From NCBI RefSeq assembly GCF_026151205.1, contig NC_087080.1, positions 15,693,337-15,757,336 of the forward strand: a DNA stretch of 64,000 bases. Reading direction: 5' to 3'. Of this stretch, positions 1-60,636 are shown one piece after another. Positions within the stretch are counted from its first letter, which is position 1; each line of letters starts with the position of its first letter. The stretch is from Bolinopsis microptera (lineage: Eukaryota; Ctenophora; Tentaculata; Lobata; Bolinopsidae). A program made the translations under genes and the position numbers. The notes under the pieces are model-generated. The model saw only the letters and a list, made by a program, of their open reading frames with translations, was not told the origin of the DNA and searched no databases.

Positions 1-358
1 TGTGAACATTTTTTATGAAAATATATTTTTGAAATATTTGAAATTTTATTAATTATTTAATTTATTAATTAAATAATTTATTTTTGAAAAAGTTGTTAAA
101 GGAAAAGTTGTTCTTCTTTGTTTTCTAAACACAATGCTTTAAACTAGAATCTTCTAGGATATTCAGAACGTGACTTATTTGCAGAAAACCAAAGTGGTAA
201 AAAGGTGGTAAAAAAGTGGTAATTGTGGATTTTCCTGAAGTCGAGGATTTTGGGAACTCTCTGGAATGATTCCTGGGACCTGTCCCGACCATATCCCGTT
301 AAAATCGCTTTGTTGCGAATTTTGTCCGACAAAGGCTTAAATTAGGACGGATTTGACT
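1..358 (-). mobile_element. Terminal arm of a preceding long-TIR transposon copy
   Basis: This stretch is near-identical to the right arms at 3193-3551 and 6306-6664 and is the reverse complement of 362-716. It ends in GACGGATTTGACTGTA and abuts the next element head-to-head across the palindrome GTACTAGTAC. The element's body lies left of the window. The short frame at 144-332 belongs to the arm and is not a gene. Confidence 0.8.
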
Positions 359-1132
359 GTACTAGTACAGTCAAATCCGTCTTTTTGTCGGACAAAATTC
401 GCAACAAAGCGATTTTAACGGGATATGGTCGGGACAGGTCCCAGGATTCATTCCAGAGAGTTCCTAAAATCCTCGACTTCAGGAAAATCCACAGTTACCA
501 CTTTTTTACCACCTTTTTACCACTTTGGTTTTCCGCAAATAAGTCACGTTCTGAATATCCTAGAAGATTCTAGTTTAAAGCATTGTGTTAAGAAAACAAA
601 GAAGAACAACTTTTTCTTTAACAACGTTTTCAAAAATAAATTATTTATTTAATTAATTAAATAATTAATAAATTTTAAAATATTTCAAAAATACATTTTC
701 ATGAAAAATGTTCACAATTACATTCCACGAATATTGAACTAATTTCTATGAAAATTTTGAAAATTTTCACTAACAATATTTTGAACTTGTAAAATTTACG
801 AAATTTGAGAAGAAAAACCACTATTTACCACTTTTTACCACATTGAATCTCCGCTAAAAAAACGACTTCTGAATATCGTAGAAGGTTCTAGATTGAACCA
901 ATGTGTTCAAAATATAAAGAGAACAAAGTTTTATCTGACAACCTTTGGATTAGATAATTAATTAATTAGTTAATTCGATTATTAAACAAATATCCAAAAA
1001 TTATAAAAATTATTTTTGATCAAAATATTTTAAAATTACATATCACGAATAATTAACAAATTTCCATTAAATTAATCGGGAAATCGAAGTAGTACTTTAT
1101 ATAACCATATATATACTAGATAACAGTCTAAC

Positions 1133-1330
1133 TTATGAGTCCTCAGCTGGCACATTGCTGCAATTGTCCTGACATTTGAGGCAGGTTGATCCACAATGTA
1201 TTCCTGCTTTTCTGCATGAACAAGCATTGCCACAACCTGACTTTAAACATTTGCAACTGATTTTTTGAATGAGCTTTTTCGGAGCTGTACTCATAAGAGT
1301 GGTCACTGGTACATGTGTCCCATTGTTCAT
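1133..1330 (-). pseudogene. CXC (tesmin/TSO1-like) cysteine-cluster fragment in transposon
   Basis: The frame encodes about 65 residues with dense cysteines: CKCLKSGCGNACSCRKAG, then C-G-STCLKCQ, then DNCSN. The C-X-C...C-X4-C-X-C spacing resembles CXC/CRC DNA- or zinc-binding modules, which also occur at the C-terminus of some transposon proteins. There is no long upstream frame, so it looks like the surviving 3' end of a transposon gene. An identical copy lies at 4246-4443. Confidence 0.5.
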
Positions 1331-1920
1331 CTTCCATCCCAGCTTATCGGATCTAGGTCATTCTCATCCCACACCTGCTGCTGATGGTAAACACGATAAG
1401 AATGTTGGCGGGAGCTGTTCGCACTTGATGTCTGCTGTTGAAGATTGCGACTTCTGTTCAAGAACTGAAAGTCTTGCTTCATCTAGTGATCTCGATTTTT
1501 ATGAAATCAGCTATTCTTAACCAATACAATGTTTTAATTTACCAGGCAAATGAGGAGTTAGTTTCGGTGAATAGCTTTAAGAGGGCGAATGATCGACAAT
1601 GTAAATTTGCATGGAATGAAATATGGAAAGGGTTGCTGTCCTCAGGTACTATTTAAACTATTTATCTTTTAAGTAAGTGCACTAACTTTTAAACTATGCC
1701 CAGCAAATTTGAAACGGATACGTACAGTCCTATTCTTTATCCTGACGCCTCTCATACCTTGTATAAATAAAGAAATCAACGCACCACAGGTTGGATCAAC
1801 AACCCCTGGTCACTGAACGAAATTAAACGGCAGTACAACGGCATGACTGATTCAGCTCTGAGTGACGTCTTGTGTGTATTATTGCAGACAGTGACCATAG
1901 ACCAGTTCCAAAGATTCATA

Positions 1921-1991
1921 TCTAGCCTAGCGGTTAGAGCATCCGCCTTCTGCGCAGAGGTTCAGGGTTCGAATCCCAGTGTCACCTAGTC
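1921..1991 (+). ncRNA. tRNA-like block (degenerate, Arg-UCU-like) in transposon
   Basis: An A-box-like TAGCCTAGCGGTTAGAGCA and a B-box GGTTCGAATCC are correctly spaced. The anticodon arm has one mismatch and a loop reading CTTCTGC (anticodon TCT). The acceptor stem does not pair: 5' TCATATC faces 3' TGTCACC. This is therefore best read as a tRNA-derived SINE head or tRNA pseudogene with possible pol III promoter elements. An identical copy lies at 5034-5104. Confidence 0.6.
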
Positions 1992-3551
1992 TAGGGAGTA
2001 GCTAAGGATCCATTGGATCTAAGGGATCTCAACGGTCGACTCAACCGAATGATAGGAAACTTAATTGAGGTTTAAATGAGGCGGGGCACCTGTTAAAAGT
2101 TCAAGCAACTAGGATACCCCTTCAGTGCATACTGTAAACATAGTGCTGTTAACTATTATATCGGCCAATGAAGAGGAGTTCGTTGTAACTGAGACAGGAC
2201 CATCTTTAGTCCGCGAACACAGTTTAAACAAATGTCCATTCTGTAACGTAGAGATCGCACTAAATGATAAATCCTCAAACCGGATTACAGACAGGGTAAA
2301 TTATTGTGCGGGGGAGGGGGGAGGTGGTATAGTACACATACGTTAGGCTCTTACTAAGTTCCTAATTCGCTCGCCCAAAAATTTCTCGTGACTTTCTCCG
2401 TAGCTTAGTGCACTAGATTCCCACTATCGGAATCGTTCTGAATAGCCGATCCTTACCAACTCCGTGGATCCGACTGGTGGTGTCTGATCCAGTGAAAGCG
2501 TGGCACAGAAATCGTGCAGAAAGCCCAATTACGGTATCCTAGCACCCTGTCACGTGATAAGCAATTAGGTAATCATTGATAACCCAATCAATTTCGCTAA
2601 CGAGATAAACAAATTGCTTGATAACTTCGTCATTTTCAATCCGTTTCGCACATCGTTTTGCAGATGTTTTGATTTGCAGAGAGGCAGTTCTGTGGTCTAA
2701 TCCAGTTGATGTTTCTGTAAGTCGAGAGATATGATGTGTAAATATTTATAAATAAGCTATAATAGTATCGTACAAATTTTGATATTTTACCGTTTATTCC
2801 ATTTATCTGAATTTTTTAAATCTGTTATCTAATCTATGTGACGGTGTATGTTCTGTTATTCAAGTAAATTCATTTTACGTCACGGCAAATATTTTTGATA
2901 AAAAGTATATTTTGAAATTTTTAAAAATTTAATTATTATTTAATTAATAAATCAATTAATTATCTAATCCAAAGGTTGTCAGATAAAAAGTTGTTCTCTT
3001 TTATATTTTGAACACATTGGTTCAATCTAGAACCTTCGACGACATTCAGAAGTCGTTTTATTAGCGGAGATTCAATGTGGTAAAAAGTGATAAATAGTGG
3101 TTATTCTTTACGAATTTCGAAAATTTTACAAGTCCAAAATATTGAAAGTGAAAATTTTTATAAAAATTAGTTCATTGCACGTGGAATGTAATTGTGAACA
3201 TTTTTTATGAAAATATATTTTTGAAATATTTGAAATTTTATTAATTATTTAATTTATTAATTAAATAATTTATTTTTGAAAAAGTTGTTAAAGGAAAAGT
3301 TGTTCTTCTTTGTTTTCTAAACACAATGCTTTAAACTAGAATCTTCTAGGATATTCAGAACGTGACTTATTTGCAGAAAACCAAAGTGGTAAAAAGGTGG
3401 TAAAAAAGTGGTAATTGTGGATTTTCCTGAAGTCGAGGATTTTGGGAACTCTCTGGAATGATTCCTGGGACCTGTCCCGACCATATCCCGTTAAAATCGC
3501 TTTGTTGCGAATTTTGTCCGACAAAGGCTTAAATTAGGACGGATTTGACTG

Positions 3552-4140
3552 TACTAACAGGATTCATGATACTCTTGTCTCACACTCTAATTAGATCAGG
3601 ATACCATCTGTTTACTGTAGAATGTGTTAATATTAGAGACTGATAGTGATGCAATGACTCAGGCACTGGAATCTGAAGCGAAACTTGAAGTCAGCAGACA
3701 ATACAATAGGTCGTGTCATGACCAGGTGCGGTCTGCATTGTTGTTCAAACTGTACCTTGAAATGTACAGATCTACTGTCCAGTGATCACCCGATCTACTG
3801 ATCTACACTCCACGTCTCCACAGACAATCTGATCAATACAGATGTCCCACCAGAGTGCAACTACATGATTTAAAGCTCTATAGCGCGGGTAAACGAAGAG
3901 TTGCTTTAGCGCATATAAGAGAAGAATAAGAAAACTCTGACGTTAACTAGTGAAGACAAGGCCTTGCCGCATGTTGACATGAATGGACAATCAGAACAAT
4001 TGACCGCTAATACACAGTTTTTGGGCAGACTTTTAACCTTTCTTATTTGAAATAATTGGCCCAACAACCAAGGCATCAAGTCTTGGAATTTAGTTTTTCG
4101 CATATAATTTTTGAAAATCAACACGATGAAAACCCAAATT
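3552..4140. repeat. Flanking segment of the 3.1 kb tandem unit, copy 1
   Basis: This segment begins TACTAACAGGATTCATGATAC directly after the transposon arm and recurs at 6665-7237 with small indels, for example around 3790-3830 versus 6905-6925. The transposon together with this flank was duplicated as a unit at an offset of 3113 bp. The flank has diverged more than the element interior. No gene is seen. Confidence 0.75.
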
Positions 4141-4245
4141 GTGTGACAAATTTATAAAATTTCATATACGAATAACAAATTTTTAATTAAATTGGAATGA
4201 AGTAGTACTTTATATAACCATATATATACTAGATAACAGTCTAAC

Positions 4246-4443
4246 TTATGAGTCCTCAGCTGGCACATTGCTGCAATTGTCCTGACATTTGAGGCAGGTT
4301 GATCCACAATGTATTCCTGCTTTTCTGCATGAACAAGCATTGCCACAACCTGACTTTAAACATTTGCAACTGATTTTTTGAATGAGCTTTTTCGGAGCTG
4401 TACTCATAAGAGTGGTCACTGGTACATGTGTCCCATTGTTCAT
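4246..4443 (-). pseudogene. CXC-type cysteine-cluster fragment, second copy
   Basis: This is identical in translation to 1133-1330, the same transposon gene remnant duplicated with the 3113-bp unit. It has no long upstream coding frame. Confidence 0.5.
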
Positions 4444-5033
4444 CTTCCATCCCAGCTTATCGGATCTAGGTCATTCTCATCCCACACCTGCTGCTGATGG
4501 TAAACACGATAAGAATGTTGGCGGGAGCTGTTCGCACTTGATGTCTGCTGTTGAAGATTGCGACTTCTGTTCAAGAACTGAAAGTCTTGCTTCATCTAGT
4601 GATCTCGATTTTTATGAAATCAGCTATTCTTAACCAATACAATGTTTTAATTTACCAGGCAAATGAGGAGTTAGTTTCGGTGAATAGCTTTAAGAGGGCG
4701 AATGATCGACAATGTAAATTTGCATGGAATGAAATATGGAAAGGGTTGCTGTCCTCAGGTACTATTTAAACTATTTATCTTTTAAGTAAGTGCACTAACT
4801 TTTAAACTATGCCCAGCAAATTTGAAACGGATACGTACAGTCCTATTCTTTATCCTGACGCCTCTCATACCTTGTATAAATAAAGAAATCAACGCACCAC
4901 AGGTTGGATCAACAACCCCTGGTCACTGAACGAAATTAAACGGCAGTACAACGGCATGACTGATTCAGCTCTGAGTGACGTCTTGTGTGTATTATTGCAG
5001 ACAGTGACCATAGACCAGTTCCAAAGATTCATA

Positions 5034-5104
5034 TCTAGCCTAGCGGTTAGAGCATCCGCCTTCTGCGCAGAGGTTCAGGGTTCGAATCCCAGTGTCACCT
5101 AGTC
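5034..5104 (+). ncRNA. tRNA-like block, second copy
   Basis: This is an exact copy of 1921-1991 at +3113 bp, with the same A and B boxes and the same unpaired acceptor stem. It is a repeat component rather than a functional tRNA. Confidence 0.6.
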
Positions 5105-6664
5105 TAGGGAGTAGCTAAGGATCCATTGGATCTAAGGGATCTCAACGGTCGACTCAACCGAATGATAGGAAACTTAATTGAGGTTTAAATGAGGCGGGGC
5201 ACCTGTTAAAAGTTCAAGCAACTAGGATACCCCTTCAGTGCATACTGTAAACATAGTGCTGTTAACTATTATATCGGCCAATGAAGAGGAGTTCGTTGTA
5301 ACTGAGACAGGACCATCTTTAGTCCGCGAACACAGTTTAAACAAATGTCCATTCTGTAACGTAGAGATCGCACTAAATGATAAATCCTCAAACCGGATTA
5401 CAGACAGGGTAAATTATTGTGCGGGGGAGGGGGGAGGTGGTATAGTACACATACGTTAGGCTCTTACTAAGTTCCTAATTCGCTCGCCCAAAAATTTCTC
5501 GTGACTTTCTCCGTAGCTTAGTGCACTAGATTCCCACTATCGGAATCGTTCTGAATAGCCGATCCTTACCAACTCCGTGGATCCGACTGGTGGTGTCTGA
5601 TCCAGTGAAAGCGTGGCACAGAAATCGTGCAGAAAGCCCAATTACGGTATCCTAGCACCCTGTCACGTGATAAGCAATTAGGTAATCATTGATAACCCAA
5701 TCAATTTCGCTAACGAGATAAACAAATTGCTTGATAACTTCGTCATTTTCAATCCGTTTCGCACATCGTTTTGCAGATGTTTTGATTTGCAGAGAGGCAG
5801 TTCTGTGGTCTAATCCAGTTGATGTTTCTGTAAGTCGAGAGATATGATGTGTAAATATTTATAAATAAGCTATAATAGTATCGTACAAATTTTGATATTT
5901 TACCGTTTATTCCATTTATCTGAATTTTTTAAATCTGTTATCTAATCTATGTGACGGTGTATGTTCTGTTATTCAAGTAAATTCATTTTACGTCACGGCA
6001 AATATTTTTGATAAAAAGTATATTTTGAAATTTTTAAAAATTTAATTATTATTTAATTAATAAATCAATTAATTATCTAATCCAAAGGTTGTCAGATAAA
6101 AAGTTGTTCTCTTTTATATTTTGAACACATTGGTTCAATCTAGAACCTTCGACGACATTCAGAAGTCGTTTTATTAGCGGAGATTCAATGTGGTAAAAAG
6201 TGATAAATAGTGGTTATTCTTTACGAATTTCGAAAATTTTACAAGTCCAAAATATTGAAAGTGAAAATTTTTATAAAAATTAGTTCATTGCACGTGGAAT
6301 GTAATTGTGAACATTTTTTATGAAAATATATTTTTGAAATATTTGAAATTTTATTAATTATTTAATTTATTAATTAAATAATTTATTTTTGAAAAAGTTG
6401 TTAAAGGAAAAGTTGTTCTTCTTTGTTTTCTAAACACAATGCTTTAAACTAGAATCTTCTAGGATATTCAGAACGTGACTTATTTGCAGAAAACCAAAGT
6501 GGTAAAAAGGTGGTAAAAAAGTGGTAATTGTGGATTTTCCTGAAGTCGAGGATTTTGGGAACTCTCTGGAATGATTCCTGGGACCTGTCCCGACCATATC
6601 CCGTTAAAATCGCTTTGTTGCGAATTTTGTCCGACAAAGGCTTAAATTAGGACGGATTTGACTG

Positions 6665-17009: not shown

Positions 17010-18812
17010 AGTGATAATTATTTTATTGAATTCACAATAGTTATAATTCTGAAATAATTTAAGGTTACACAATTCTAGTTATTTACAGATGTGTAGGGAT
17101 AAAATAGAAATGTTTTATAATACTATTTTTGAGGTCCTATAGCATTATGCATTGGCCAGTATTTGAGTGGAAATCTGGGCTCTTATAGTAGGCTGTAAAA
17201 TTTTCGTTCACAGAGAGAATTGAATGGATTGCTCTTGCTGTGGCAGTAAATTTTGTAGGGTCTAGTGTTTTATCGGATAGCAAACCGGCTAGGTCAGTAA
17301 TATTTTTGGGATGGAAGTTAAATTTTTCTCTAACTGAGGAGTAGAGTAAACAGTCAGTTAGAACATGAATTTCGTCCTCAATAGGCTTAAGCCCCTTGCT
17401 GAAAAAGCAAAAAGTGCACCATCGATGTTCTCTTGGTACTAGGGGGGTTTCGTAACGGCCCCTCTCAATGTAAAGATTGTGGCAACTAATACGAAACCTT
17501 GTTAAGCTTTTCCGAGCATCGGGGATCTTAACCACTCCTAAGTATGTTTCTGGTTCAAAATCATGTTTAATTTGATTGTAGAATTCTAATTTAGGTGAGG
17601 ATGCCTTGGCAGATTTCCAGGTATCCACAAATTCTTCCCTCATGTTGTGACTGATTTGGGTAGAGAGCTTGGATTTTGAAGAGGATGAGTGGGGGAAGTT
17701 ATATTTGGTGAGAAGATTAGAGATGTTGGTGTACCAAGGAAGGCCCAGCATAATCTGCTCGTGAAATGCAGCGGAGAGAAGTTCATTTTCAGTGCTTTCA
17801 AGGCGAGTATAGAAATCTATTGCAAGTTTGCAGGCTTCAAAGAAGAGGGGGTGGCGCCCACTTTCGCCCCAGCAGCCTATATTTGATGCTTTTGAATGGA
17901 CAGACAAAGACCACTTGATAAACTTAAGGTGGAATCTTTCATAGTGGTCTTGTGAGATGTACCTGAGAGTATGCTGGGGGTTGGCTTTGCTATCTGTTTT
18001 GGAGAGGTATCTCATGGTTTTTGAGTGAGGACATGAGATTTGGCAGCCATAGAGCAGTATCGGTTTTATTAGAGAGTCAAATAGAATGTTTAGAGAACGG
18101 TGAGAGAGGGCATCTTTGACGATATTGCCTTTGAGGCCATAGAGAGCACGGAGAGCCTTGGCCCTCAGTTCAGTATTTGCTGCTGTAAAAGATCCATTTC
18201 TGTGGAATATAATGCCAAGATAGCAGTATTTTTCGGTGTGTTGGATGGGCTGGCCTCCCAAAATGAATGTTTCATAGGATTGTTTTCTTTTAGGAGGGCA
18301 GAATATGAGAATCTTGGTTTTTTTAATGTTTACTTCAAGGCCCATAGAGTTACAGAAGTCGAATAGGATGTTTATATTGTCTTGCAAGGCCTTGGGACTT
18401 AGGGCAAGTAGGACAAGATCGTCAGCCCAGAGCAGATGTGATATTAGGACGTCAGCTAGAATAGGATAATCACCAACAGATTTCAGGAGAGATGACAAGT
18501 CGTTGATATAGATTTTAAAAAGGTCCGGTGATAGAGGGTGTCCCTGCTCTGTTCCTTTTCCAATGTCAATATTAGGGGACAAGAGTTTGGAGATTTTTAT
18601 ATGAGCTATTGAGTTTCTATACATATCACTTAGGCAATTGAAGAAGTTTCCAGTTATTCCAAGGCATGTTATTTTGTGCAGAGGAGGTCCCTACATACAG
18701 TGTCAAAGGCCTTTCTTAGATCAACAAAGCATGCATAGAGGCGAGCTTTCTTAACCTTGGTATATTTGTCAATGACTGTCTTAAGGGTAAAAACGTGGTC
18801 ATTTGTTATAAT
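17010..18812 (-). pseudogene. 5'-truncated non-LTR retrotransposon, RT domain
   Basis: A 495-codon frame (17137-18624) contains GKGTEQGHPLSPDLFKIYIN (RT motif with PLSP), the catalytic WADDLVLLA (a W variant of the usual Y/F-ADD), then a thumb with KTKILIF, YCYLGIIF and a late CTFC...H...C knuckle. Just upstream, in another frame, lies KARLYACFVDLRKAFDTVCR, the preceding RT motif; a small deletion near 18650 breaks the frame. Sequence homology stops near 18812, so the 5' end is lost. It sits in K2P intron 7 in the gene's own orientation. Confidence 0.88.
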
Positions 18813-19105: not shown

Positions 19106-19650
19106 TGAGTGTGGGTGTCACTAAGTTTATAAATATGTTTTACTACTCGGATAAGAGTACGAGCGTGGGTGTCACTAAGTTTATAACTATGTTTTACTAC
19201 TCGGATAAGAGTACGAGTGTGGGTGTCACTAAGTTTATAAATATGTTTTACTACTCGGATAAGAGTACGAGCGTGGGTGTCACTAAGTTTATAACTATGT
19301 TTTACTACTCGGATAAGAGTACGAGTGTGGGTGTCACTAAGTTTATAACTATGTTTTACTACTCGGATAAGAGTACGAGTGTGGGTGTCACTAAGTTTAT
19401 AACTATGTTTTACTACTCGGATAAGAGTACGAGTGTGGGTGTCACTAAGTTTATAACTATGTTTTACTACTCGGATAAGAGTACGAGCGTGGGTGTCACT
19501 AAGTTTATAACTATGTTTTACTACTCGGATAAGAGTACGAGCGTGGGTGTCACTAAGTTTATAACTATGTTTTACTACTCGGATAAGAGTACGAGTGTGG
19601 GTGTCACTAAGTTTATAACTATGTTTTACTACTCGGATAAGAGTACGAGA
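19106..19650 (+). repeat. 51-bp minisatellite, ~10.5 copies
   Basis: The unit contains GTGGGTGTCACTAAGTTTAT, then AACTATGTTTTACTACTCGG, then ATAAGAGTACGA. Variation is limited to AAATATG/AACTATG and GAGCG/GAGTG. Because 51 is a multiple of 3, frames stay open on both strands; they are by-products. It is not on an exon boundary. Confidence 0.9.
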
Positions 19651-20145: not shown

Positions 20146-20302
20146 CTGTCCCGTAAAGGGAAGTTGAAGACGTATTCCACAGATTGAGCCAGTAGAGCGC
20201 CCAGATAAGCTATGAAAAGGAAACATAGTGGTATTCCAATCAGAGCAAATACCAGGAGGAACACTTGGCCTCCTGTCGTTACAGGGTAGATGTTACCGTA
20301 AC
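20146..20302 (-). CDS. KCNK: K2P exon 7: end of first filter (GYG) and TM2
   Basis: The acceptor is TTTAACCTCCAG and the donor is ACAG|GTAGTT. The first two bases complete Gly of the filter. It then reads YGNIYPVTTGGQVFLLVFAL, followed by IGIPLCFLFIAYLGALLAQ, the Pro-hinged TM2 of K2P channels, and SVEYVFNFPLRD. The selectivity filter is thus split by an intron exactly at TIG|YG. Confidence 0.96.
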
Positions 20303-20689
20303 CTGGAGGTTAAATGATAGATGTTATTTCCTTCCCCCAAATGGGGCTTAACGTACATACATGGTAATTGGTAAAACGTGCAATAGACAATGGGATCTGA
20401 GGGCTCAAACCCTGTTATGCCGGAAGGGGGCTTGGTTCGAAAAGTTGGGTTATTTTTGATATGTATTTTGAAATGTAATAATTTATCTATAATTTAAAAC
20501 AAAACTCGAACTGTTTGACCTTTTGTTAGATTTTAAGGGCCATTCAAAATTTGGACACGAGTCTTGAGACACCCTGTACTGTACACAAACAAAACCTCGA
20601 TTTATACCGCAAACCCCGATTTACCGCGACTGTTTCCTTTCCCCAAACTCCACGGTAAATCGGGGTTTTACTGTCCTTATAACCCGTTA

Positions 20690-22350
20690 CAACGTACCTA
20701 TAGTAGTAACGGTGCAGCCCCCTGCCCCCTGCCCCCTGGTTACCACGTACCTATAGTAGTGACGGTGCAGCCCCCCTGGCCCCCCTGCCCCCTGCCCCCC
20801 CCCCCCCCCCCCTGATTACCACGTACCTATAGTAGTGACGGTGCAGCCCCCTGGCCCCCCTGCCCCCTGGTTACCACGTACCTATAGTAGTGACGGTGCA
20901 GCCCCCCTGGCCCCCCTGCCCCCCCCCCCCCCCCTGCCCCCCTGGTTACCACGTACCTATAGTAGTGACCCTGCAGCCCCCCTGCCCCCCCTGGTTACCA
21001 CGTACCTATAGTAGTGACCCTGCAGCCCCCCTGCCCCCTGGTTACCACGTACCTATAGTAGTGACCCTGCAGCCCCCTGCCCCCCCCTGCCCCCCTGGTT
21101 ACCACGTACCTATAGTAGTGACCCTGCAGCCCCCCTGCAGCCCCCCTGCCCCCCCTGGTTACCACGTACCTATAGTAGTGACCCTGCAGCCCCCTGCCCC
21201 CCCCTGCCCCCCTGGTTACCACGTACCTATAGTAGTGACCCTGCAGCCCCCTGCCCCCCCCCCCCTGCCCCCTGGTTACCACGTACCTATAGTAGTGACC
21301 CTGCAGCCCCCCTGCCCCCCTGGTTACCACGTACCTATAGTAGTGACCCTGCAGCCCCCCTGCAGCCCCCCCTGCCCCCCCCCTGGTTACCACGTACCTA
21401 TAGTAGTGACGGTGCAGCCCCCTGCCCCTGCCCCCTGCCCCCCCTGCCCCTGGTTACCACGTACCTATAGTAGTGACGGTGCAACCCCCCTGCCCCCCTG
21501 GTTACCACGTACCTATAGTAGTGACGGTGCAGCCCCCCTGCAGCCCCCTGTCCCCCTGGTTACCACGTACCTATAGTAGTGACAGTGCAGCCCCCCTGGC
21601 CCCCCTGCCCCCCTGCCCCCCCTGCCCCCTGCCCCCCCCCCCCTGATTACCACGTACCTATAGTAGTGACCCTGCAGCCCCCCTGGCCCCCTGCTCCCCC
21701 TGGTTACCACGTACCTATAGTAGTGACGGTGCAGCCCCCTGGCCCCCTGCCCCCCCTGCCCCCCCCCCCCCCCTGCCACCCCTCCCCTGGTTACCACGTA
21801 CCTATAGTAGTGACAGTGCAGCCCCCCTGGCCCCCTGCCCCCCCTGCCCCCCCCCCCCCCCCCTGCCACCCCTCCCCTGGTTACCACGTACTTATAGTAG
21901 TGACGGTGCAGCCCCCTGGCCCCCTGCCCCCCCTGCCCCCCCCCCCCCCCTGCCACCCCTCCCCTGGTTACCACGTACCTATAGTAGTGACCCTGCAGCC
22001 CCCTGCCCCCCCCCCCCTGCCCCCCCTGGTTACCACGTACCTATAGTAGTGACGGTGCAGCCCCCTGGCCCCCCTGCCCCCCCCCTGCCCCCCCCCCCTG
22101 CCACCCCTCCCCTGGTTACCACGTACCTATAGTAGTGACGGTGCAGCCCCCCTGCAGCCCCCTGCCCCCCTGGTTACCACGTACCTATAGTAGTGACGGT
22201 GCAGCCCCCTGGCCCCCCTGCCCCCCCTGCCCCCCCCCTGCCACCCCTCCCCTGGTTACCACGTACCTATAGTAGTGACGGTGCAGCCCCCTGGCCCCCC
22301 TGCCCCCCCCTGCCCCCCCCCCTGCCACCCCTCCCCTGGTTACCACGTAC
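20690..22350 (-). repeat. Minisatellite of ~25 copies of the filter-exon donor
   Basis: On the minus strand each unit carries GTCACTACTATAG|GTACGT plus GGTAACC, the last codons of K2P exon 6 with its donor. The units are separated by G-rich spacers with GGGGGGCAGGGGG-type runs. I count 25 copies of CCTATAGTAGT (one is CTTATAGTAGT) on the plus strand before the true exon's copy at 22351. Unit length runs from about 46 to 93 bp because of spacer length. Many copies have CTGCAGG before GTCACT in place of GCACC. All keep the GT dinucleotide. Frames through it (20890-22441) are incidental. Confidence 0.95.
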
Positions 22351-22437
22351 CTATAGTAGTGACGGTGCTAACGGAGACATACAACCCTCCTGTAAAACTC
22401 CACGCTTCTTTACGTCCCTCATATATGTAGGGGTTAG
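22351..22437 (-). CDS. KCNK: K2P exon 6: pore helix and first half of filter
   Basis: The acceptor is CCTCTATTTCAG and the donor is ATAG|GTACGT. It encodes NPYIYEGRKEAWSFTGGLYV then SVSTVTTI with the first base of Gly. W-S-F-x-G-x-L-Y-x-S-x-x-T-x-T-T-I-G is the canonical K2P pore-1 signature. The donor is the rightmost (5'-most in transcription) of about 26 near-identical sites. Reading past any copy gives ATA GGT ACG TGG TAA, an immediate stop. Confidence 0.95.
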   Translation of the reverse strand, partial: LTPTYMRDVKKRGVLQEGCMSPLAPSLL

Positions 22438-22679
22438 CTGAAATAGAGGCAGAGTATAGTTCATGAGCTTAGTTCATGAGTGAATGGCGGTGAATTACAT
22501 TAGTAAAAGAGAGCCTGACTGAAGACTGGACCGTTGTAATATGTTACACACATAAAAGTTCACAAAAATTTTAATTGCGTTTACCTTAAAATGTATTTAC
22601 ACACAAGACGAAGGATGCTACAATCTTACTAAAAAAGATTCAAAAAGGTTTTTATGTTTTAAGAAGATCAAAAGTATCG

Positions 22680-22877
22680 CACAAAACTAATTTTCGTCAG
22701 CGAGTGCTCTGACAAAACTAATCTTCGTCAGCGAGTGCTCTGACAAAACTAACCTTCGTCAGCAAGTGCTCTGACAAAACTAACCTTCCTCAGCGAGTGC
22801 TCTGACAAAACTAATCTTCGTCAGCGAGTGCTCTGACAAAACTAACCTTCGTCAGCGAGTGCTCTGACAAAACTAAC
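22680..22877 (-). repeat. 31-bp minisatellite copying the cap-exon donor
   Basis: Counting the exon's own copy there are seven 31-bp units. On the minus strand each holds AGAGCACTCGCTGACGAAG|GTTAGT, the last codons of K2P exon 5 plus its donor. GT is intact in some units (those reading AACTAACC on the plus strand) and changed to AT in others (AACTAATC or AACTAATT). Reading through a used copy gives GAA GGT TAG, an immediate stop. Confidence 0.92.
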
Positions 22878-22974
22878 CTTCGTCAGCGAGTGCTCTGACC
22901 AAGACTGTCAGATCTTCAGAATACTCCGAGAAGTTTTTAGAAGGTTCCAGAATTTCCCGAACAAAACCCTCTAA
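22878..22974 (-). CDS. KCNK: K2P exon 5: extracellular cap
   Basis: The acceptor is CACCTCCACAG and the donor is GAAG|GTTAGT. It encodes LEGFVREILEPSKNFSEYSE then DLTVLVRALADE. These are two amphipathic segments, matching the paired cap helices of K2P channels. NFS is a possible N-glycosylation site. It enters in phase 0 and leaves after one base, which forms Ala with exon 6. Confidence 0.9.
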
Positions 22975-26192: not shown

Positions 26193-28269
26193 TACCTTAC
26201 AAGACATTTTTGTGGCGGACCAATTTGCGACGACCGAAATTTTGGCGGTCCGAAAATATGGCGAAATTGAACAAAAACCGTCACATTTCGGACGTCACAG
26301 AAAATAAGGGTATTTTTCATCATTTTGTTTTCTGACACAAAGCTAAAGGAAATTCAAACTTTTCTCAAAATCGGTAAAATCATGTTGAAACAAAATGAAA
26401 CTTATAAATCGATTTCTTCATCTTCCTCTAAGGGGTCCGGCTCGACTCTTTCAGTTTCACTTATTGAGTTTGGTATTAAATTGTTTATCTTGACTTGTAC
26501 CTTCATTCACTGAAGGATTCCTTACCCCACTGCAAAAACCTGGTAAGCCACGTGGACCTTTAAAAAGTCTGCGCCCTCTTTGTCTTTTAAACGGCACCAG
26601 GAAGATATTGTCCATGATAGTCCTTAGACGCATTCGAAGACAAGTTTCTCAGTACACAGGACCTTGGCAAAATGCCTACAAGCCTGGCCATAGCTGTGCA
26701 AATATTGTTTGGACACAACGGATCCTAGTTTCAGTTGTGAAGGAGAAACGCTGGTCTCTACACAAAATGGGTATTGATATGTCATCTGCATTCGACACCA
26801 TTAAGAGATCAGTTTTGCTAGAACTTCTTGCTGATGCTGGTTGTAGTGAAAACGACATCCGACTGGTAAGGTACCTACTCTCATGTACCAAACTGAAGAT
26901 TAAAGTGAGGTCTACCGTATCAGGGGAGTTCATTGTCACGATAGGTGCGTTCCAAGGTGATAGTTTGTCTGGAAACCTTTTCACCCTGTATTTGGCTGGC
27001 GCACTTTATCACCTTCGTGCCTTTATGTCTTATCTAAGACCCAACCCTCCGTTTGCTGAAAACGTGCTACCTCTTGAGTGGGAGTACGCAGACGACGCAG
27101 ACTTCACAGACGAGGATAAAAAGAATTTGGAGTCCATGTTACCAATATGCAAGGAGATATTGGAGGAGTGGAATCTTTTTGTCAACGAATCAAATACAGA
27201 ATTCACACATATCTATCTGGCCGAGAAGAACGAAGTTGATGACAAAGGAGAGCCACTTCGAGGAAGAGAGCCCTGGAGATCATCTATCTCACTTGGTTCC
27301 AAATTGTGCAGCAACGAGGACATAAAAAGACGATGTATTCTGGCAAATCTTGCTTTCCAAACCTACAAGAAAGTTTGGGAACAAGGTAAACGCATACCTC
27401 TTAAGACCAGACTTAAGATCTACGAAGCCCAGGTGGTCTCCGTCTTAATGTATAATTGTAGCTGCTGGGCTGCTTCAAAGCAGCTACTGAGTAAACTGGA
27501 TATTTGCCACAGAAAGCATCTGAGGCAAATCATCAGAATGACTTACCCTAATATAATCAAAAACGACACCCTTTACAAGAGATGTGAAGTGGTTCCACTC
27601 AGTGAGCGTGTTGCATGTGCACGATGGAGGATGCTCGGACATGTCCTTCGCAGTGATAACAACTCACCTGCACAGCTTGCATTACACTTTGCAGTAGAGA
27701 GTCAGAGTACCAAAAAGGGTAGAGTAGGCAGACACCAGTCGAACTTGCTTAAGACTATTAAATTTGATTTAGGTAGTAGGAACATTCCATTTGTAAATAC
27801 AGACGATTTGTACAATTTAAGACTTTTAGCCTCTGATAGAGCGGGATGGAAGAAGTTGTTATAGCTTGTGTATCAGTATTTCTTTTTTTCTGGCTACTTA
27901 TCAGATCTTTAAGATGTTCATTTATGTTCTATTTTTGATTTGAATAAAGTTATATAATAAAGTTATATAATATCTTGACTTAGTCTCTTATAAGACGTTT
28001 ATGTTAGCACATAAATGTAATTTATTGTAAATTTAAAACGTATTACTTGACATTAAATTCATCATGGAATATTGTGTTTATTTGTCCCACCATCATATCA
28101 CCAACTTTTCAAGAACAAAATGAATCGATGAAGCCACAATTATTGGAATAAGCTAAAAATAATGCGACGGATTCTATTACGACGACCGAAATTTTGGCAG
28201 TCCGAAAATATGGCGAAATTTCGGGAAAACCGTCGCATTTCGTACGTTATAAAAATGTCTTGTAAGGTA
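26193..28269. mobile_element. Inner unit with 19-bp perfect inverted ends flanking RT
   Basis: TACCTTACAAGACATTTTT at 26193-26211 is repeated in inverse at 28251-28269. Inside each end is a ~75-bp direct repeat starting CGACGACCGAAATTTTGGC (26228 and 28180). The RT frame lies between. Either two MITE copies flank a LINE insertion, or one element captured the RT. Confidence 0.6.
26494..27864 (+). CDS. Non-LTR reverse transcriptase, 5'-truncated
   Basis: An open frame of 456 codons follows a stop at 26491. The RT fingers begin before the first ATG: LQKPGKPRGPLKSLRPLCLL, NGTRKILSMIVLRRI, then AYKPGHSCANIVWTQRI. Next come GIDMSSAFDTIKRS, GAFQGDSLSGNLFTLYLAGA and the catalytic YADDADF. The thumb and tail include RLKIYEAQVVSVLMYNCSCW and RWRMLGHVLR, as in LINE ORF2 C-termini. 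The N-terminal endonuclease is absent, so this is a 5'-truncated copy, but 456 intact codons suggest it is recent. It sits on the plus strand inside the K2P intron and differs in lineage from the 17-kb LINE. Confidence 0.88.
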   Translation, partial: LVPSFTEGFLTPLQKPGKPRGPLKSLRPLCLLNGTRKILSMIVLRRIRRQVSQYTGPWQNAYKPGHSCANIVWTQRILVSVVKEKRWSLHKMGIDMSSAFDTIKRSVLLELLADAGCSENDIRLVRYLLSCTKLKIKVRSTVSGEFIVTIGAFQGDSLSGNLFTLYLAGALYHLRAFMSYLRPNPPFAENVLPLEWEYADDADFTDEDKKNLESMLPICKEILEEWNLFVNESNTEFTHIYLAEKNEVDDKGEPLRGREPWRSSISLGSKLCSNEDIKRRCILANLAFQTYKKVWEQGKRIPLKTRLKIYEAQVVSVLMYNCSCWAASKQLLSKLDICHRKHLRQIIRMTYPNIIKNDTLYKRCEVVPLSERVACARWRMLGHVLRSDNNSPAQLALHFAVESQSTKKGRVGRHQSNLLKTIKFDLGSRNIPFVNTDDLYNLRLLASDRAGWKKLL

Positions 28270-43994: not shown

Positions 43995-44741
43995 CGAGGG
44001 TTCCATAACGGCCTGGGTCACGGTCCCGAAAGGGCCTGGGTCACGGTCCCAAAAGGGCCTGGGTCACGGTCCCGAAAGGGCCTGGGTAACGGTCCCGAAA
44101 GGGCCTGGGTCACGGTCCCGAAAGGGCCTGGGTCACGTGGTAACCGGGTCACGTGGCCTAGGCATGAGTTTCAAAAGGGCCTGGGTCACGGTCCCGAAAG
44201 GGCCTGGGTCAGGGTCCCGAAAGGGCATGGGTCACGTGGTAACTGGGTCACGTGGCCTAGGTATGAGTTCCAAAAGGGCCTGGGTCACGTGGTAACTGGG
44301 TCACGTGGCCTAGGTATGAGTTCCAAAAGGGCCTGGGTCACGGTCCCGAAAGGGCCTGGGTCAGGGTCCCGAAAGGGCCTGGGTCAGGGTCCCGAAAGGG
44401 CCTGAGTCAGGGTCCCGAAAGGGCCTGGGTCACGTGGTAACTGGGTCACGTGGCCTAGGTATGAGTTTCAAAAGGGTCACGGTCCCGAAAGGGCCTGGGT
44501 CACGGTCCCAAAAGGGCCTGGGTCACGGTCCCGAAAGGGCCTGGGTAACGGTCCCGAAAGGGCCTGGGTCACGGTCCCGAAAGGGCCTGGGTCACGTGGT
44601 AACCGGGTCACGTGGCCTAGGCATGAGTTTCAAAAGGGCCTGGGTCACGGTCCCGAAAGGGCCTGGGTCAGGGTCCCGAAAGGGCATGGGTCACGTGGTA
44701 ACTGGGTCACGTGGCCTAGGTATGAGTTCCAAAAGGGCCCG
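43995..44741 (+). repeat. GGGCCTGGGTCACGG minisatellite with higher-order repeat
   Basis: Short units (about 22-23 bp, GGTCCCGAAAGGGCCTGGGTCAC in parts) alternate with a longer block carrying ACGTGGCCTAGG and ATGAGTTTCAAAAGGG. The order at about 44020-44270 recurs at about 44480-44730, giving a higher-order period near 460 bp. It lies inside the TIR element. Confidence 0.85.
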
Positions 44742-46504: not shown

Positions 46505-48072
46505 AAGTTTCCTAGCGATATAGATCAGATCCTAGTGATATAGATCAGATCCTAGTGATATAGATCAGATACTAGTGATATAGATCAGATCCTAGCGATA
46601 TAGATCAGATCCTAGTGATATAGATCAGATACTAGTGATATAGATCAGATACTAGTGATATAGATCAGATCCTAGTGATATAGATCAGATCCTAGTGATA
46701 TAGATCAGATACTAGTGATATAGATCAGATACTAGTGATATAGATCAGATACTAGTGATATAGATCAGATCCTAGTGATATAGATCAGATCCTAGTGATA
46801 TAGATCAGATCCTAGTGATATAGATCAGATACTAGTGATATAGATCAGATACTAGTGATATAGATCAGATCCTAGTGATATAGATCAGATCCTAGTGATA
46901 TAGATCAGATCCTAGTGATATAGATCAGATACTAGTGATATAGATCAGATACTAGTGATATAGATCAGATACTAGTGATATAGATCAGATACTAGTGATA
47001 TAGATCAGATACTAGTGATATAGATCAGATACTAGTGATATAGATCAGATCCTAGTGATATAGATCAGATACTAGTGATATAGATCAGATACTAGTGATA
47101 TAGATCAGATACTAGTGATATAGATCAGATCCTAGTGATATAGATCAGATACTAGTGATATAGATCAGATCCTAGTGATATAGATCAGATACTAGTGATA
47201 TAGATCAGATCCTAGTGATATAGATCAGATACTAGTGATATAGATCAGATACTAGTGATATAGATCAGATACTAGTGATATAGATCAGATACTAGTGATA
47301 TAGATCAGATCCTAGTGATATAGATCAGATACTAGTGATATAGATCAGATACTAGTGATATAGATCAGATACTAGTGATATAGATCAGATACTAGTGATA
47401 TAGATCAGATCCTAGTGATATAGATCAGATACTAGTGATATAGATCAGATACTAGTGATATAGATCAGATACTAGTGATATAGATCAGATACTAGTGATA
47501 TAGATCAGATACTAGTGATATAGATCAGATACTAGTGATATAGATCAGATACTAGTGATATAGATCAGATACTAGTGATATAGATCAGATACTAGTGATA
47601 TAGATCAGATACTAGTGATATAGATCAGATACTAGCGATATAGATCAGATCCTAGTGATATAGATCAGATACTAGTGATATAGATCAGATACTAGTGATA
47701 TAGATCAGATACTAGTGATATAGATCAGATCCTAGTGATATAGATCAGATACTAGTGATATAGATCAGATACTAGTGATATAGATCAGATACTAGTGATA
47801 TAGATCAGATACTAGTGATATAGATCAGATACTAGTGATATAGATCAGATACTAGTGATATAGATCAGATACTAGTGATATAGATCAGATACTAGTGATA
47901 TAGATCAGATACTAGCGATATAGATCAGATCCTAGTGATATAGATCAGATACTAGTGATATAGATCAGATACTAGTGATATAGATCAGATACTAGTGATA
48001 TAGATCAGATACTAGTGATATAGATCAGATCCTAGTGATATAGATCAGATACTAGTGATATAGATCAGATCT
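46505..48072 (+). repeat. 20-bp minisatellite with 280-bp higher-order repeat
   Basis: About 78 units of CTAGTGATATAGATCAGATA. Units differ mainly by C or A before CTAGTGAT, with rare GCGAT. The rare ACTAGCGATATAGATCAGAT followed by CCTAG occurs at 47631 and again at 47911, exactly 14 units apart, with matching neighbours. Confidence 0.95.
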
Positions 48073-48774: not shown

Positions 48775-49116
48775 GGGTTATTAGTGACAACTCCATATTA
48801 TTAGTGACAACTCCATATTATTAGTGACAACTCCATATTATTAGTGACAACTCCATATTATTAGTGACAACTCCATATTATTAGTGACAACTCCATATTA
48901 TTAGCGACAACTCCATATTATTAGTGACAACTCCATATTATTAGTGACAAGTCCATATTATTAGTGACAACTCCATATTATTAGTGACAACTCCATATTA
49001 TTAGTGACAACTCCATATTATTAGTGACAACTCCATATTATTAGTGACTACTCCATATTATTAGTGACTACTCCATATTATTAGTGACAACTCCATGTTA
49101 TTAGCGATAACTCCAT
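48775..49116 (+). repeat. 20-bp minisatellite (ATTAGTGACAACTCCATATT)
   Basis: About 17 units of 20 bp, almost perfect. It starts some 35 bp upstream of the acceptor of the Ly6 exon at 48739, so it lies in the branch-point side of that intron. Confidence 0.95.
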
Positions 49117-50440
49117 ATTCGATGAAACCGAATATAATTCTTCATCGTGGCCACAACTCCCTACAACCATAATTTTTGGAATTTAAGTTGGTGAGATTTA
49201 CATTTTTCATTGCATGTCACTTGTCAGTACTAGATTCGTCCGGGATAGTGAAGTTGTTTTAATAATTACAAATCCCGGACTGAAGACTATTACAGAGGGA
49301 ACTAACGTTGGAATCTCTGTAGGATCCTCGTCAGGACGGTTTATGTCACCCCCTCCCCCTGCACCCTTCCGTCCTGCTTGTACTACTGATCTCTGTATCC
49401 CTGTCAGATGGTCATTATTTGTCAGTTATCCAACTTATAGCTGGTATTATTCGTTATATATCTTATGTTTTTCATCTTTCTGTCGAATTCAATTTAAAAT
49501 TTAAATTAGATTTAATCGAATTGTTTGATACCGAAATAATTATTTATCGAAAATGACAAAAATCTAATATTATCTACTATTGATGAACAAAATACCGAAT
49601 ATAAGGAGTAATATCTGGAGAAGAAGAGGCCGCTTCACAAACGTCATCCTTTTCAGTAAACTTGCCAACTTCCGCCAATCAACATTTAGCTGAAAGAGCT
49701 GCTAGGAATTTTAAAAAGATTAGAATTAAAAGTCGCCAAAGAAATTAAAGGAAATTACTGTTATCAATTCGTTTATAATATCAATGGGTTAATCTTCGGT
49801 TTTTAACGAACAGACATCAGATAGCTCGATGGAGTAATGTTGTCACAAAATTGTGTGACGAGTCCTCCGCCTTAGAGAAAATAAAATAACACTTTTAAGA
49901 AACAGAATAATAATTAAAGAAAATATAAATTTGGGTCAGTTCAGGAAAGTCGTAATTATAGAATTATGAAGCTGCCACGAACATCAGCAGCTGCACCATT
50001 CTCAGCCGACTAATATTTATACCGTACTATTTATAACTTTATAACAAATTTTAAAATACATCATGAATATAATTGCTTAATTAATGGAATTTTACGTGTC
50101 GGTATATTTTTGGCAGACTGTTTTGCAGGTGTTAATCATGTTGTGTACAAGATCTTCACAGCAATAAAAAACATTAATAAAAGTGGTAACTAATTGTTAA
50201 TCATCAATCAATCATTATTATGACAGAAAGAGTGCACACTATATTTGGGCTTCTCGCTATGAATGTCAGCGCACTTTTGGCTGAAGTAGGATTCCGACCA
50301 CAATTTTACATGATTATAAAACCAACCTAAAAAGTAAAATTGACCACAAACTAAACCCGATCTTAATTCTTCCAAAACCCGACCTCATTTTTACCAAAAC
50401 TCTGTGTCGGTGTTCGGCAGGACACCTTGTCGGAACCCTG
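49117..50440. other. Ly6 intron sequence
   Basis: No exon seen on the minus strand. The plus-strand frame at 49214-49504 has no recognisable features. Confidence 0.4.
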
Positions 50441-50561: not shown

Positions 50562-50566
50562 ATATA

Positions 50567-53500
50567 CCACAGGACACCTTGTCCGAACCTCATAGACCTA
50601 ACTAACACTCACCACAGGACACCATGTCGGAACCCCAGAGACCTAACTAAGACTCACCACAGGACACCTTGTCGGAACCCCATAGACCTAACTAACACTC
50701 ACCACAGGACACCTTGTCGAAACCCAAGAGACCTAACTAAGACTCACCACAGGACACCTTGTCGGAACCCCAGAGACCTAACTAACACTCACCGCAGGAC
50801 ACCTTGTCGGAACCCCAGAGACCTAACTAAGACTCACCACAGGACACCTTGTCGGAACCCCAGAGACCTAACTAACACTCACCACAGGACACCTTGTCGT
50901 AACCCCAGAGACCTAACTAACACTCACCACAGGACACCATGTCGGAACCCCAGAGACCTAACTAAGACTCACCACAGGACACCTTGTCGGAACACAAGAG
51001 ACCTAACTAACACTCACCACAGGACACCTTGTCGGAACCCCAGAGACCTAACTAAGACTCACCACAGGACACCTTGTCGGAACCCCAGAGACCTAACTAA
51101 CACTCACCACAGGACACCTTGTCGGAACCCCAGAGACCTAACTAAGACTCACCACAGGACACCTTGTCGGAACCCCAGAGACCTAACTAAGACTCACCAC
51201 AGGACACCTTGTCGGAACCCCAGAGGCCTAACTAAGACTCACCACAGGACACCTTGTCGGAACACCAGAGACCTAACTAACACTCACCACAGGACACCTT
51301 GTCGGAACCCCAGAGACCTAACTAAGACTCACCACAGGACACCTTGTCGGAACCCCAGAGACCTAACTAACACTCACCACAGGACACCTTGTCGGAACAC
51401 CAGAGACCTAACTAACACTCACCACAGGACACCTTGTCGGAACACCAGAGACCTAACTAACACTCACCACAGGACACCTTGTCGGAACCCCAGAGACCTA
51501 ACTAAGACTCACCACAGGACACCTTGTCGGAACCCCAGAGACCTAACTAAGACTCACCACAGGACACCTTGTCGGAACCCCAGAGACCTAACTAACACTC
51601 ACCACAGGACACCATGTCGGAACCCCAGAGACCTAACTAAGACTCACCACAGGACACCTTGTCGGAACCCCAGAGACCTAACTAAGACTCACCACAGGAC
51701 ACCTTGTCGGAACACCAGAGACCTAACTAACACTCACCACAGGACACCTTGTCGGAACCCCAGAGACCTAACTAAGACTCACCACAGGACACCTTGTCGG
51801 AACCCCAGAGACCTAACTAACACTCACCACAGGACACCTTGTCGGAACACCAGAGACCTAACTAACACTCACCACAGGACACCTTGTCGGAACCCCAGAG
51901 ACCTAACTAAGACTCACCACAGGACACCTTGTCGGAACCCCAGAGACCTAACTAAGACTCACCACAGGACACCTTGTCGGAACCCCAGAGACCTAACTAA
52001 CACTCACCACAGGACACCTTGTCGTAACCCCAGAGACCTAACTAACACTCACCACAGGACACCATGTCGGAACCCCAGAGACCTAACTAAGACTCACCAC
52101 AGGACACCTTGTCGGAACCCCAGAGACCTAACTAAGACTCACCACAGGACACCTTGTCGGAACCCAAGAGACCTAACTAAGACTCACCACAGGACACCTT
52201 GTCGGAACCCCAGAGACCTAACTAACACTCACCACAGGACACCTTGTCGGAACCCCAGAGACCTAACTAACACTCACCACAGGACACCTTGTCGGAACCC
52301 CAGAGACCTAACTAAGACTCACCACAGGACACCTTGTCGGAACCCCAGAGACCTAACTAAGACTCACCACAGGACACCTTGTCGGAACCCCAGAGACCTA
52401 ACTAAGACTCACCACAGGACACCTTGTCGGAACCCCAGAGACCTAACTAACACTCACCACAGGACACCTTGTCGGAACCCCAGAGACCTAACTAACACTC
52501 ACCACAGGACACCTTGTCGGAACCCCAGAGACCTAACTAACACTCACCACAGGACACCTTGTCGGAACCCCAGAGACCTAACTAACACTCACCACAGGAC
52601 ACCTTGTCGGAACCCCAGAGACCTAACTAACACTCACCACAGGACACCTTGTCGGAACCCCAGAGACCTAACTAACACTCACCACAGGACACCTTGTCGG
52701 AACCCCAGAGACCTAACTAACACTCACCACAGGACACCTTGTCAGAACCCCAGAGACCTAACTAACACTCACCACAGGACACCTTGTCGGAACCCCAGAG
52801 ACCTAACTAACACTCACCACAGGACACCTTGTCGGAACCCCAGAGACCTAACTAACACTCACCACAGGACACCTTGTCGGAACCCCAGAGACCTAACTAA
52901 CACTCACCACAGGACACCTTGTCGGAACCCCAGAGACCTAACTAACACTCACCACAGGACACCTTGTCGGAACCCCAGAGACCTAACTAAGACTCACCAC
53001 AGGACACCTTGTCGGAACCCCAGAGACCTAACTAACACTCACCACAGGACACCTTGTCGGAACCCCAGAGACCTAACTAACACTCACCACAGGACACCTT
53101 GTCGGAACCCCAGAGACCTAACTAACACTCACCACAGGACACCTTGTCGGAACCCCAGAGACCTAACTAACACTCACCACAGGACACCTTGTCGGAACCC
53201 CAGAGACCTAACTAACACTCACCACAGGACACCTTGTCGGAACCCCAGAGACCTAACTAACACTCACCACAGGACACCTTGTCGGAACCCCAGAGACCTA
53301 ACTAACACTCACCACAGGACACCTTGTCGGAACCCCAGAGACCTAACTAACACTCACCACAGGACACCTTGTCGGAACCCCAGAGACCTAACTAACACTC
53401 ACCACAGGACACCTTGTCGGAACCCCAGAGACCTAACTAACACTCACCACAGGACACCTTGTCGGAACCCCAGAGACCTAACTAACACTCACCACAGGAC

Positions 53501-55158
53501 ACCTTGTCGGAACCCCAGAGACCTAACTAACACTCACCACAGGACACCTTGTCGGAACACCAGAGACCTAACTAACACTCACCACAGGACACCTTGTCGG
53601 AACACCAGAGACCTAACTTAGACTCAACACAGGACACCTTGTCGGAACACCAGAGACCTAACTTAGACTCAACACAGGACACCTTGTCGGAACCCCAGAG
53701 ACCTAACTAACACTCACCACAGGACACCTTGTCGGAACACCAGAGACCTAACTAACACTCACCACAGGACACCTTGTCGGAACCCCAGAGACCTAACTAA
53801 GACTCACCACAGGACACCTTGTCGGAACCCCAGAGACCTAACTAACACTCACCACAGGACACCTTGTCGGAACCCCAGAGACCTAACTAACACTCACCAC
53901 AGGACACCTTGTCGGAACCCCAGAGACCTAACTAACACTCACCACAGGACACCTTGTCGGAACCCCAGAGACCTAACTAACACTCACCACAGGACACCTT
54001 GTCGGAACCCCAGAGACCTAACTAACACTCACCACAGGACACCTTGTCGGAACCCCAGAGACCTAACTAACACTCACCACAGGACACCTTGTCGGAACCC
54101 CAGAGACCTAACTAACACTCACCACAGGACACCTTGTCGGAACCCCAGAGACCTAACTAACACTCACCACAGGACACCTTGTCGGAACCCCAGAGACCTA
54201 ACTAACACTCACCACAGGACACCTTGTCGGAACCCCAGAGACCTAACTAACACTCACCACAGGACACCTTGTCGGAACCCCAGAGACCTAACTAACACTC
54301 ACCACAGGACACCTTGTCGGAACCCCAGAGACCTAACTAACACTCACCACAGGACACCTTGTCGGAACCCCAGAGACCTAACTAACACTCACCACAGGAC
54401 ACCTTGTCGGAACCCCAGAGACCTAACTAACACTCACCACAGGACACCTTGTCGGAACCCCAGAGACCTAACTAACACTCACCACAGGACACCTTGTCGG
54501 AACCCCAGAGACCTAACTAACACTCACCACAGGACACCTTGTCGGAACCCCAGAGACCTAACTAACACTCACCACAGGACACCTTGTCGGAACCCCAGAG
54601 ACCTAACTAACACTCACCACAGGACACCTTGTCGGAACCCCAGAGACCTAACTAACACTCACCACAGGACACCTTGTCGGAACCCCAGAGACCTAACTAA
54701 CACTCACCACAGGACACCTTGTCGGAACCCCAGAGACCTAACTAACACTCACCACAGGACACCTTGTCGGAACCCCAGAGACCTAACTAACACTCACCAC
54801 AGGACACCTTGTCGGAACCCCAGAGACCTAACTAACACTCACCACAGGACACCTTGTCGGAACCCCAGAGACCTAACTAAGACTCACCACAGGACACCTT
54901 GTCGGAACCCCAGAGACCTAACTAACACTCACCACAGGACACCTTGTCGGAACCCCAGAGACCTAACTAACACTCACCACAGGACACCTTGTCGGAACCC
55001 CAGAGACCTAACTAACACTCACCACAGGACACCTTGTCGGAACCCCAGAGACCTAACTAACACTCACCACAGGACACCTTGTCGGAACCCCAGAGACCTA
55101 ACTAACACTCACCACAGGACACCTTGTCGGAACCCCAGAGACCTAACTAACACTCACC
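50567..55158 (+). repeat. 45-bp minisatellite, ~102 copies
   Basis: The unit reads GGACACCTTGTCGGAACCCC, then AGAGACCTAACTAACACTCA, then CCACA. The 5' part (to about 52440) mixes AACACTC/AAGACTC and ACCCC/ACACC variants; the 3' part is nearly homogeneous. Because 45 is a multiple of 3, a frame of more than 1000 codons runs through it (HRTPCRNPRDLTNT). It is treated as non-coding: it starts in flank sequence, lacks family resemblance and lies in a Ly6 intron. Confidence 0.96.
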
Positions 55159-55159
55159 A

Positions 55160-60510: not shown

Positions 60511-60636
60511 GTTTGTCCACTAAGAAGCTTCAGTCGGGGCTGAAGAAGCTAACAGGTCGCTGGAAGGGAAGTCAGACCGATAATAAGATGGAGAGTGCCT
60601 ACTCTGAAACCAACATATCCGCTATTCCGCATTATG
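60511..60636 (+). CDS. Unidentified gene, exon C
   Basis: The acceptor is CCTTGTTACAG and the donor is TATG|GTGAGT. It encodes LSTKKLQSGLKKLTGRWKGS, then QTDNKMESAYSETNISAIPH, then Y. The basic GLKKLTGRWKGSQ is reminiscent of the G-[IL]-K-K-x-F/T-G-[KR] segments of liprin-beta/kazrin-type scaffolds, but this is a weak impression. All three exons are phase 1 on both sides. The next exon was not found before the right edge. The donor is followed by an array of its own copies. Confidence 0.55.

Follow-up and report, generated by a model that had tools for sequence, protein, structure and literature searches.

The window, by which we mean the whole stretch of 64,000 nucleotides that was analyzed, lies on contig C9 of a 265-Mb genome that looks like that of an animal from its K2P, kinesin, myosin, and ADAM-like genes, and it carries a two-pore potassium channel (K2P) gene on its minus strand. 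One exon of this gene (22351..22437, minus strand; exon 6 in the numbering of the earlier note) is preceded by an acceptor reading ...tttcag|CTAACCCC at 22438|22437, is in phase 1, and ends at the first half of the selectivity filter with ...GTC ACT ACT ATA G, after which the intron begins at 22350 as GTACGTGG. The next exon (20146..20302, minus strand), which encodes GYGN... and M2, was identified from the sequence and from an Ion_trans_2 match at C9:15713523-15713639. Joining the first donor to exon 20302-20146 gives the reading TTIGYGN, and the resulting spliced product matched Pfam Ion_trans_2 (E 7.5e-18) and, among solved K2P channels, 6pis (E 7.9e-20, with an alignment that crosses the junction); the upstream exon was defined by these matches together with its sequence.

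The junction between this exon and its intron is repeated in tandem. The array (20690..22368, minus strand) contains 26 junction copies, namely the true donor and 25 decoys, which are spaced 47-90 nt apart, mostly by a G-rich spacer of variable length, and the repeated part, which reaches down to about 20690, comprises the exon's final 18 nt and the intron start. The sequence CTACTATA(A/G)GTACGT occurs at 26 places in the array and the exact 21-mer GTCACTACTATAGGTACGTGG at 24, and the sense strand has 106 runs of GGG or longer. When a 60-base unit was searched against the genome as DNA, at least 26 matches were obtained, at a single place (window 20686-22368). The earlier note had described about 25 copies of the exon's own 5' splice site in the following intron, amounting to about 26 near-equal donors that all keep GT, and this observation is real: none of the 25 decoys has lost GT or shows any change in the donor hexamer, and one of them has G>A at the base that ends the exon part. 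The extent given for the array needed revision, since the repeat begins inside the exon, at about 22368, and the final ~390 nt of intron (20303..20689, minus strand, ending cctccag| in the sequence) lie outside it. The statement that any decoy adds a stop codon also held, because a TAA in the frame of the exon follows after 8 nt of intron and would be added by each of the 25 decoys.

Two more exon-intron junction arrays, absent from the earlier note, were found in the window, at 22681-22899 and 60627-61420. The former (minus strand) lies at the preceding K2P exon (22878..22974, minus strand, identified from its sequence) and consists of 7 copies of a 31-nt unit made of 22 nt of exon end and 9 nt of intron, with GT lost in 3 of its 6 decoys. 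The latter (plus strand) is located at an exon-like open stretch of another gene (LSTKKLQSGLKKLTGRWKGSQTDNKMESAYSETNISAIPHY-G, 60511..60636, plus strand) and has a 33-34-nt unit, CCGCATTATG|GTGAGTACAATG..., with GT present in 22 of 23 decoys. Since a Pfam search of this stretch gave nothing at E 1 or below, its status as a putative exon rests on its open reading frame and splice signals.

Other repeats and open frames were also observed in the window. At 50566-55159 there are 102 copies of a 45-bp unit, with a similar sequence of about 45 nt on both flanks; the minus-strand units read GTGGTGAGTG, which is donor-like, and no exon was found there. A 23-bp-based minisatellite at 44010-44739 includes some longer units with the donor-like sequence CTAG|GTATGAG, again with no exon found. 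Long minisatellites with units of 20, 20, and 54 bp lie at 46512-48070, 48778-49119, and 19107-19649, respectively, and no GTRAGT was seen by eye in their units. Within 1-6530, both repeats and open frames come back at an interval of about 3.1 kb, as seen in the TRF rows at 45, 3237, and 6350 and in identical 83-amino-acid ORFs at 1269 and 4382, which suggests that this region is a large tandem duplication. Two open frames, at 17140-18690 (minus strand) and 26494-27861 (plus strand), may encode reverse transcriptases, judging from their motifs, and the putative reverse transcriptase frame at 17140-18690 sits within a K2P intron.

Tandem duplications at splice junctions outside the window

Searches with five domain families listed 582 matches (114 Ion_trans_2, 136 Pkinase, 150 Ion_trans, 73 Myosin_head, and 109 Kinesin), and 242 domain-defined exons outside the window were taken in three batches, with 60 from Ion_trans_2 and Pkinase, 106 from 18 stretches that hold myosin and kinesin genes, and 76 from myosin, kinesin, and Ion_trans. 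These exons were picked for short open frames or exon-dense genes and are a non-random sample of few families, in which adjacent exons of one gene cannot count as independent and long units are missed by the 170-nt flanks of the third batch. Donors, acceptors, and tandem duplications were called in all batches by a single rule that used splice-signal weights; 218 donors and 233 acceptors were callable, and 24 and 9 of the 242 exons, respectively, had no callable site. The arrays of the window itself were left out of the counts because the window had been selected for the finding. Three donor-type arrays that were seen by eye and missed by the caller (L104, L101, and L112) are also outside the counts, and L061 was ambiguous.

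Tandem duplication spanned 11 of the 218 callable donors (L049, L081, L084, L085, L109, L114, L132, L147, L148, L162, and L179), or 10 independent ones when L084 and L085, which form one duplicated region, are counted once. It also spanned 5 of the 233 callable acceptors (L109, L139, L140, L151, and L162); a sixth acceptor call (L097) was a mis-call and was removed. The sequences of all these donors and acceptors were inspected individually. The same arrangement is found at unrelated junctions, where the units vary in sequence and length, with repeat shifts of 23-73 nt, and differ from one another except in the L084/L085 region. The acceptor arrays were observed in kinesin genes, for example at L109:5424-5951 (sense orientation), where about 24 copies of TTTTCAG|GAGGTAACA stand upstream of the exon GGNSMTLMIACCSPADS. 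A mechanism confined to donors had been considered from the first sample (donors 4/60, acceptors 0/60, by eye) and was abandoned once the second and third samples had yielded five real acceptor arrays.

The frequency of tandem duplication changes across the junctions. On the donor side, it was 12/214 at +100, 20/218 at +60, and 11/218 at the junction, and toward the exon it was 3/218 at -40, 0/218 at -60, and 2/218 at -90. On the acceptor side, it was 14/225 at -120, 18/231 at -60, and 6/233 at the junction (the L097 mis-call included), and toward the exon it was 1/233 at +40, 0/233 at +60, and 2/233 at +90; the points 90 nt from either junction may fall past a short exon. Tandem duplication in the flanking intron of the sampled loci was thus 6-9%, and tandem duplications made up 7.6% of the sampled gene DNA (198,596 bases), while first-order randomization of those sampled loci that lie outside the window and have callable sites yielded no spanned donor, no spanned acceptor, and zero coverage in each of 4 runs. 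By Fisher tests, duplication was more frequent at donors than in the exon interior at -60 (p = 0.0009) and less frequent at acceptors (5/233) than in the intron at -60 (p = 0.005). Donors were not over-represented relative to the intron at +60 (11/218 vs. 20/218, p = 0.13), and the difference between donors (10/217) and acceptors (5/233) was not significant (p = 0.19). These results indicate that duplications are largely excluded from exons and partly from acceptors, and that donors are duplicated about as often as the neighboring intron.

The near-identical K2P-like loci L084 and L085 were observed on contig C12, about 474 kb apart and on opposite strands. Both carry one same 67-nt junction array, which suggests that this array predates their segmental duplication. 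Long G runs such as those in the K2P spacers are error-prone, and an artefact of assembly or collapse might leave rows of this kind. Such an origin is hardly credible, however, in view of the clean units that independent junction arrays have across many contigs and of the presence of the 67-nt array in both copies of the duplicated region.

A genome-wide count of donor motifs was also tried as a measure and was dropped. Three AGGTAAGT spaced 10-40 nt apart gave 1347 matches (backward control, 11), and 676 matches (backward control, 24) came from the dinucleotide-matched permutation AGTAAGGT, whose sequence also resembles a donor (AAG|GT); both totals are numbers of overlapping copies and not of arrays. 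Among the first array places listed, 7 with the donor motif and 9 with the control motif were inspected by eye at their upstream edges, and one donor-motif array (L025) was located on an exon end. This exon end resembles that of an ADAM protein in its motif, and its match to Pfam Reprolysin was weak (E 0.0074, under the profile cut-off). At L024, no 5' edge of the array was reached, also with further flanking sequence (L180), and the other 14 of the 16 places showed no clear exon by eye.

Decoy conservation and the origin of the K2P array

Conservation was examined in 84 decoys from 13 arrays (three of the window, L025, and nine sampled loci), with decoys accepted at up to 6 mismatches in 24 letters, which leaves out badly decayed copies; many loci end before the array does, and L147 entered the test and had no decoy at this threshold. 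Mismatches to the consensus were found in 4 of 168 letters of GT, in 5 of 336 letters of the rest of the donor hexamer, and in 45 of 1512 letters of the other columns. The pooled decoys therefore had no excess conservation of GT (p = 0.81; GT lost in 4 of the 84) or of the whole hexamer (p = 0.20), and selection to keep the decoy GTs was not found in this test. In the K2P array considered alone, the flanking columns are near-invariant too, except for one column with 12 changes, and the retention of GT in all copies is not a sign of selection.

These results bear on the functions proposed in the earlier note, in which the array would serve as a U1-binding platform, buffer the donor against mutation, or set the splicing efficiency of the K2P gene. 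The unchanged GT and hexamer of the K2P decoys agree with such roles. G-runs can act as intronic enhancers, and the runs of the spacers could have this effect. At least 10 U1 matches were listed in the genome, and the two loci examined both have the 5' end ATACTTACCTG, complementary to the donors; since U1 genes with this 5' end are present, and the consensus of the called donors is ordinary, donor recognition looks ordinary. However, the structure recurs at unrelated donors and acceptors, the pooled arrays lack excess conservation of GT, half of the decoys in the neighboring K2P array have lost it, and donors are not enriched over flanking intron at +60 or +100. A functional array is thus very unlikely in our judgment, and the array need not be functional.

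With regard to origin, each unit is a contiguous exon end and intron start, as expected from the earlier proposal that the array grew by tandem duplication of the exon-intron junction. The last K2P copy continues into non-repeat intron (GTACGTTGTAACGGGTTATAAGG), and the ~390 nt between the array and the acceptor are not part of any copy, which fits that stretch being the original intron. Furthermore, the next exon of two paralogues that look K2P-like from their motifs starts at the same GYG codon (L049, GCTACGGTAAC; L084, GATACGGTCTA). Given this common position, the K2P intron probably predates the array, which would be a secondary growth on an old junction.

We consider it quite probable that the array is a minisatellite seeded across an exon-intron junction in a duplication-prone genome and tolerated as the original junction survives. 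A short tandem duplication spanning the junction would have been the start, and slippage or unequal exchange may then have enlarged it, as one case of a genome-wide duplication process in which some duplications would take in a donor or an acceptor and selection would remove the copies that damage exons. Junction-spanning arrays may be tolerated because the original exon and junction would remain intact at the edge of the array, so that the exon-adjacent donor (or the last acceptor) could still give the right mRNA; the reading frame suggests the edge site as the one in use. Use of a decoy would give an in-frame stop in 76 of the 84 decoys and a frameshift in 6, the two in-frame decoys both being from L179, and the products would presumably decay. 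The rows of look-alike splice sites have probably accumulated by chance. Some observations count against a tolerated minisatellite. GT and the hexamer are unchanged throughout the K2P array, and 25 near-identical decoys are extreme among the arrays seen. Because the difference between donors and acceptors is non-significant, the argument from tolerance is without clear asymmetry. When identical donors compete, the intron-proximal site is often favored, which would predict trouble for the K2P array.

A splice site that is copied with its exon and intron context yields competing sites that are near-equal in strength and differ mainly in position, and rows of such look-alikes test how cells pick the right one, a question of donor choice for which hand-made duplicate-site constructs have been used. 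Should the whole genome show the rates of the sample, about 5% for donors and 2% for acceptors, the arrays would amount to natural replicates. Sequencing of RNA would then be enough by itself to examine positional rules in the choice of splice sites, what decoys cost, and the reshaping of gene structure by minisatellites. For arrays of this kind, GT retention is a poor sign of function. It is conceivable, though doubtful, that near-perfect duplicates of donors and acceptors number in the thousands in essential genes of this lineage, with the spliceosome taking the exon-adjacent copy by position alone or with a second AG|GT step clearing the retained copies; if so, exon context and not site sequence would set splice-site identity.

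Comparison with known systems

Recursive splicing sites are AG|GT ratchet points, and the K2P array resembles them in having AG|GT junction copies inside an intron. The segment between the first donor and whichever decoy is used would begin with GT and end with AG, so that it could be removed in a second, recursive step, and decoy use would be self-correcting. The K2P exon ends in ATAG, and AG is kept in 24 of the 25 decoys, as this would predict. In contrast to ratchet points, AG does not precede GT in all arrays, several of which are at exons that end in CA, CG, TG, or ATG, and AG-ending exons are not enriched among the spanned donors (6/11, vs. 131/218 of called donors). Correction of this kind, which is read from the site sequences, is therefore unlikely.

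Intron gain by tandem duplication is a second system for comparison, with Hellsten 2011 and the potato RdRp case as references. In PMC4974935, intron gain by tandem duplication is described for potato RdRp, AGGT repeats are cited as forming introns in fission-yeast genes, and cases in vertebrates are included as well. In both situations, segments with splice-site sequence are duplicated in tandem; there, a new intron results, whereas here the intron was already present and has acquired additional copies of its junction. The arrays might themselves be new introns from tandem duplication of an AGGT-containing exon segment (the Rogers model), and tandem AGGT units are what this model requires. 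For K2P, however, the intron position is common to L049 and L084, and the array ends ~390 nt short of the acceptor, the 3' part of the intron being non-array, and we regard this origin as most improbable. The K2P array does not look like a dispersed mobile element or introner either, since its unit was found at one place only among the matches listed in one DNA search.

A further likeness is with the human IFI6 gene (G1P3, 6-16), for which Turri, Cuin and Porter in 1995 reportedly described a minisatellite with multiple splice donors. There, the minisatellite is at an exon end and donors lie within its units, and the K2P array likewise has a donor per unit at the exon-intron junction. According to PMC4526556, two downstream repeat units of IFI6 act as donors, giving three mRNAs. 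IFI6 is thus one gene in which decoys are used, in contrast to the arrays described here, which occur in unrelated genes and at acceptors as well, and in which 82 of the 84 decoys would lead to a stop or a frameshift. Among literature titles and the starts of abstracts, which give partial coverage, no prior account of genome-wide tandem-arrayed splice junctions was found. The thirteen large contigs and 265 Mb of the present genome are reminiscent of lobate ctenophores, and for the ctenophore Hormiphora 13 chromosomes and 13% tandem repeats are reported in PMC8527503. DIOX_N, a domain present in ctenophores, had 3 matches in the genome (E 4.3e-8 to 9.0e-4), which is no proof of such an affinity. 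IFI6 is a single-gene precedent, and the surprising part is the frequency of such arrays at ordinary donors and acceptors.
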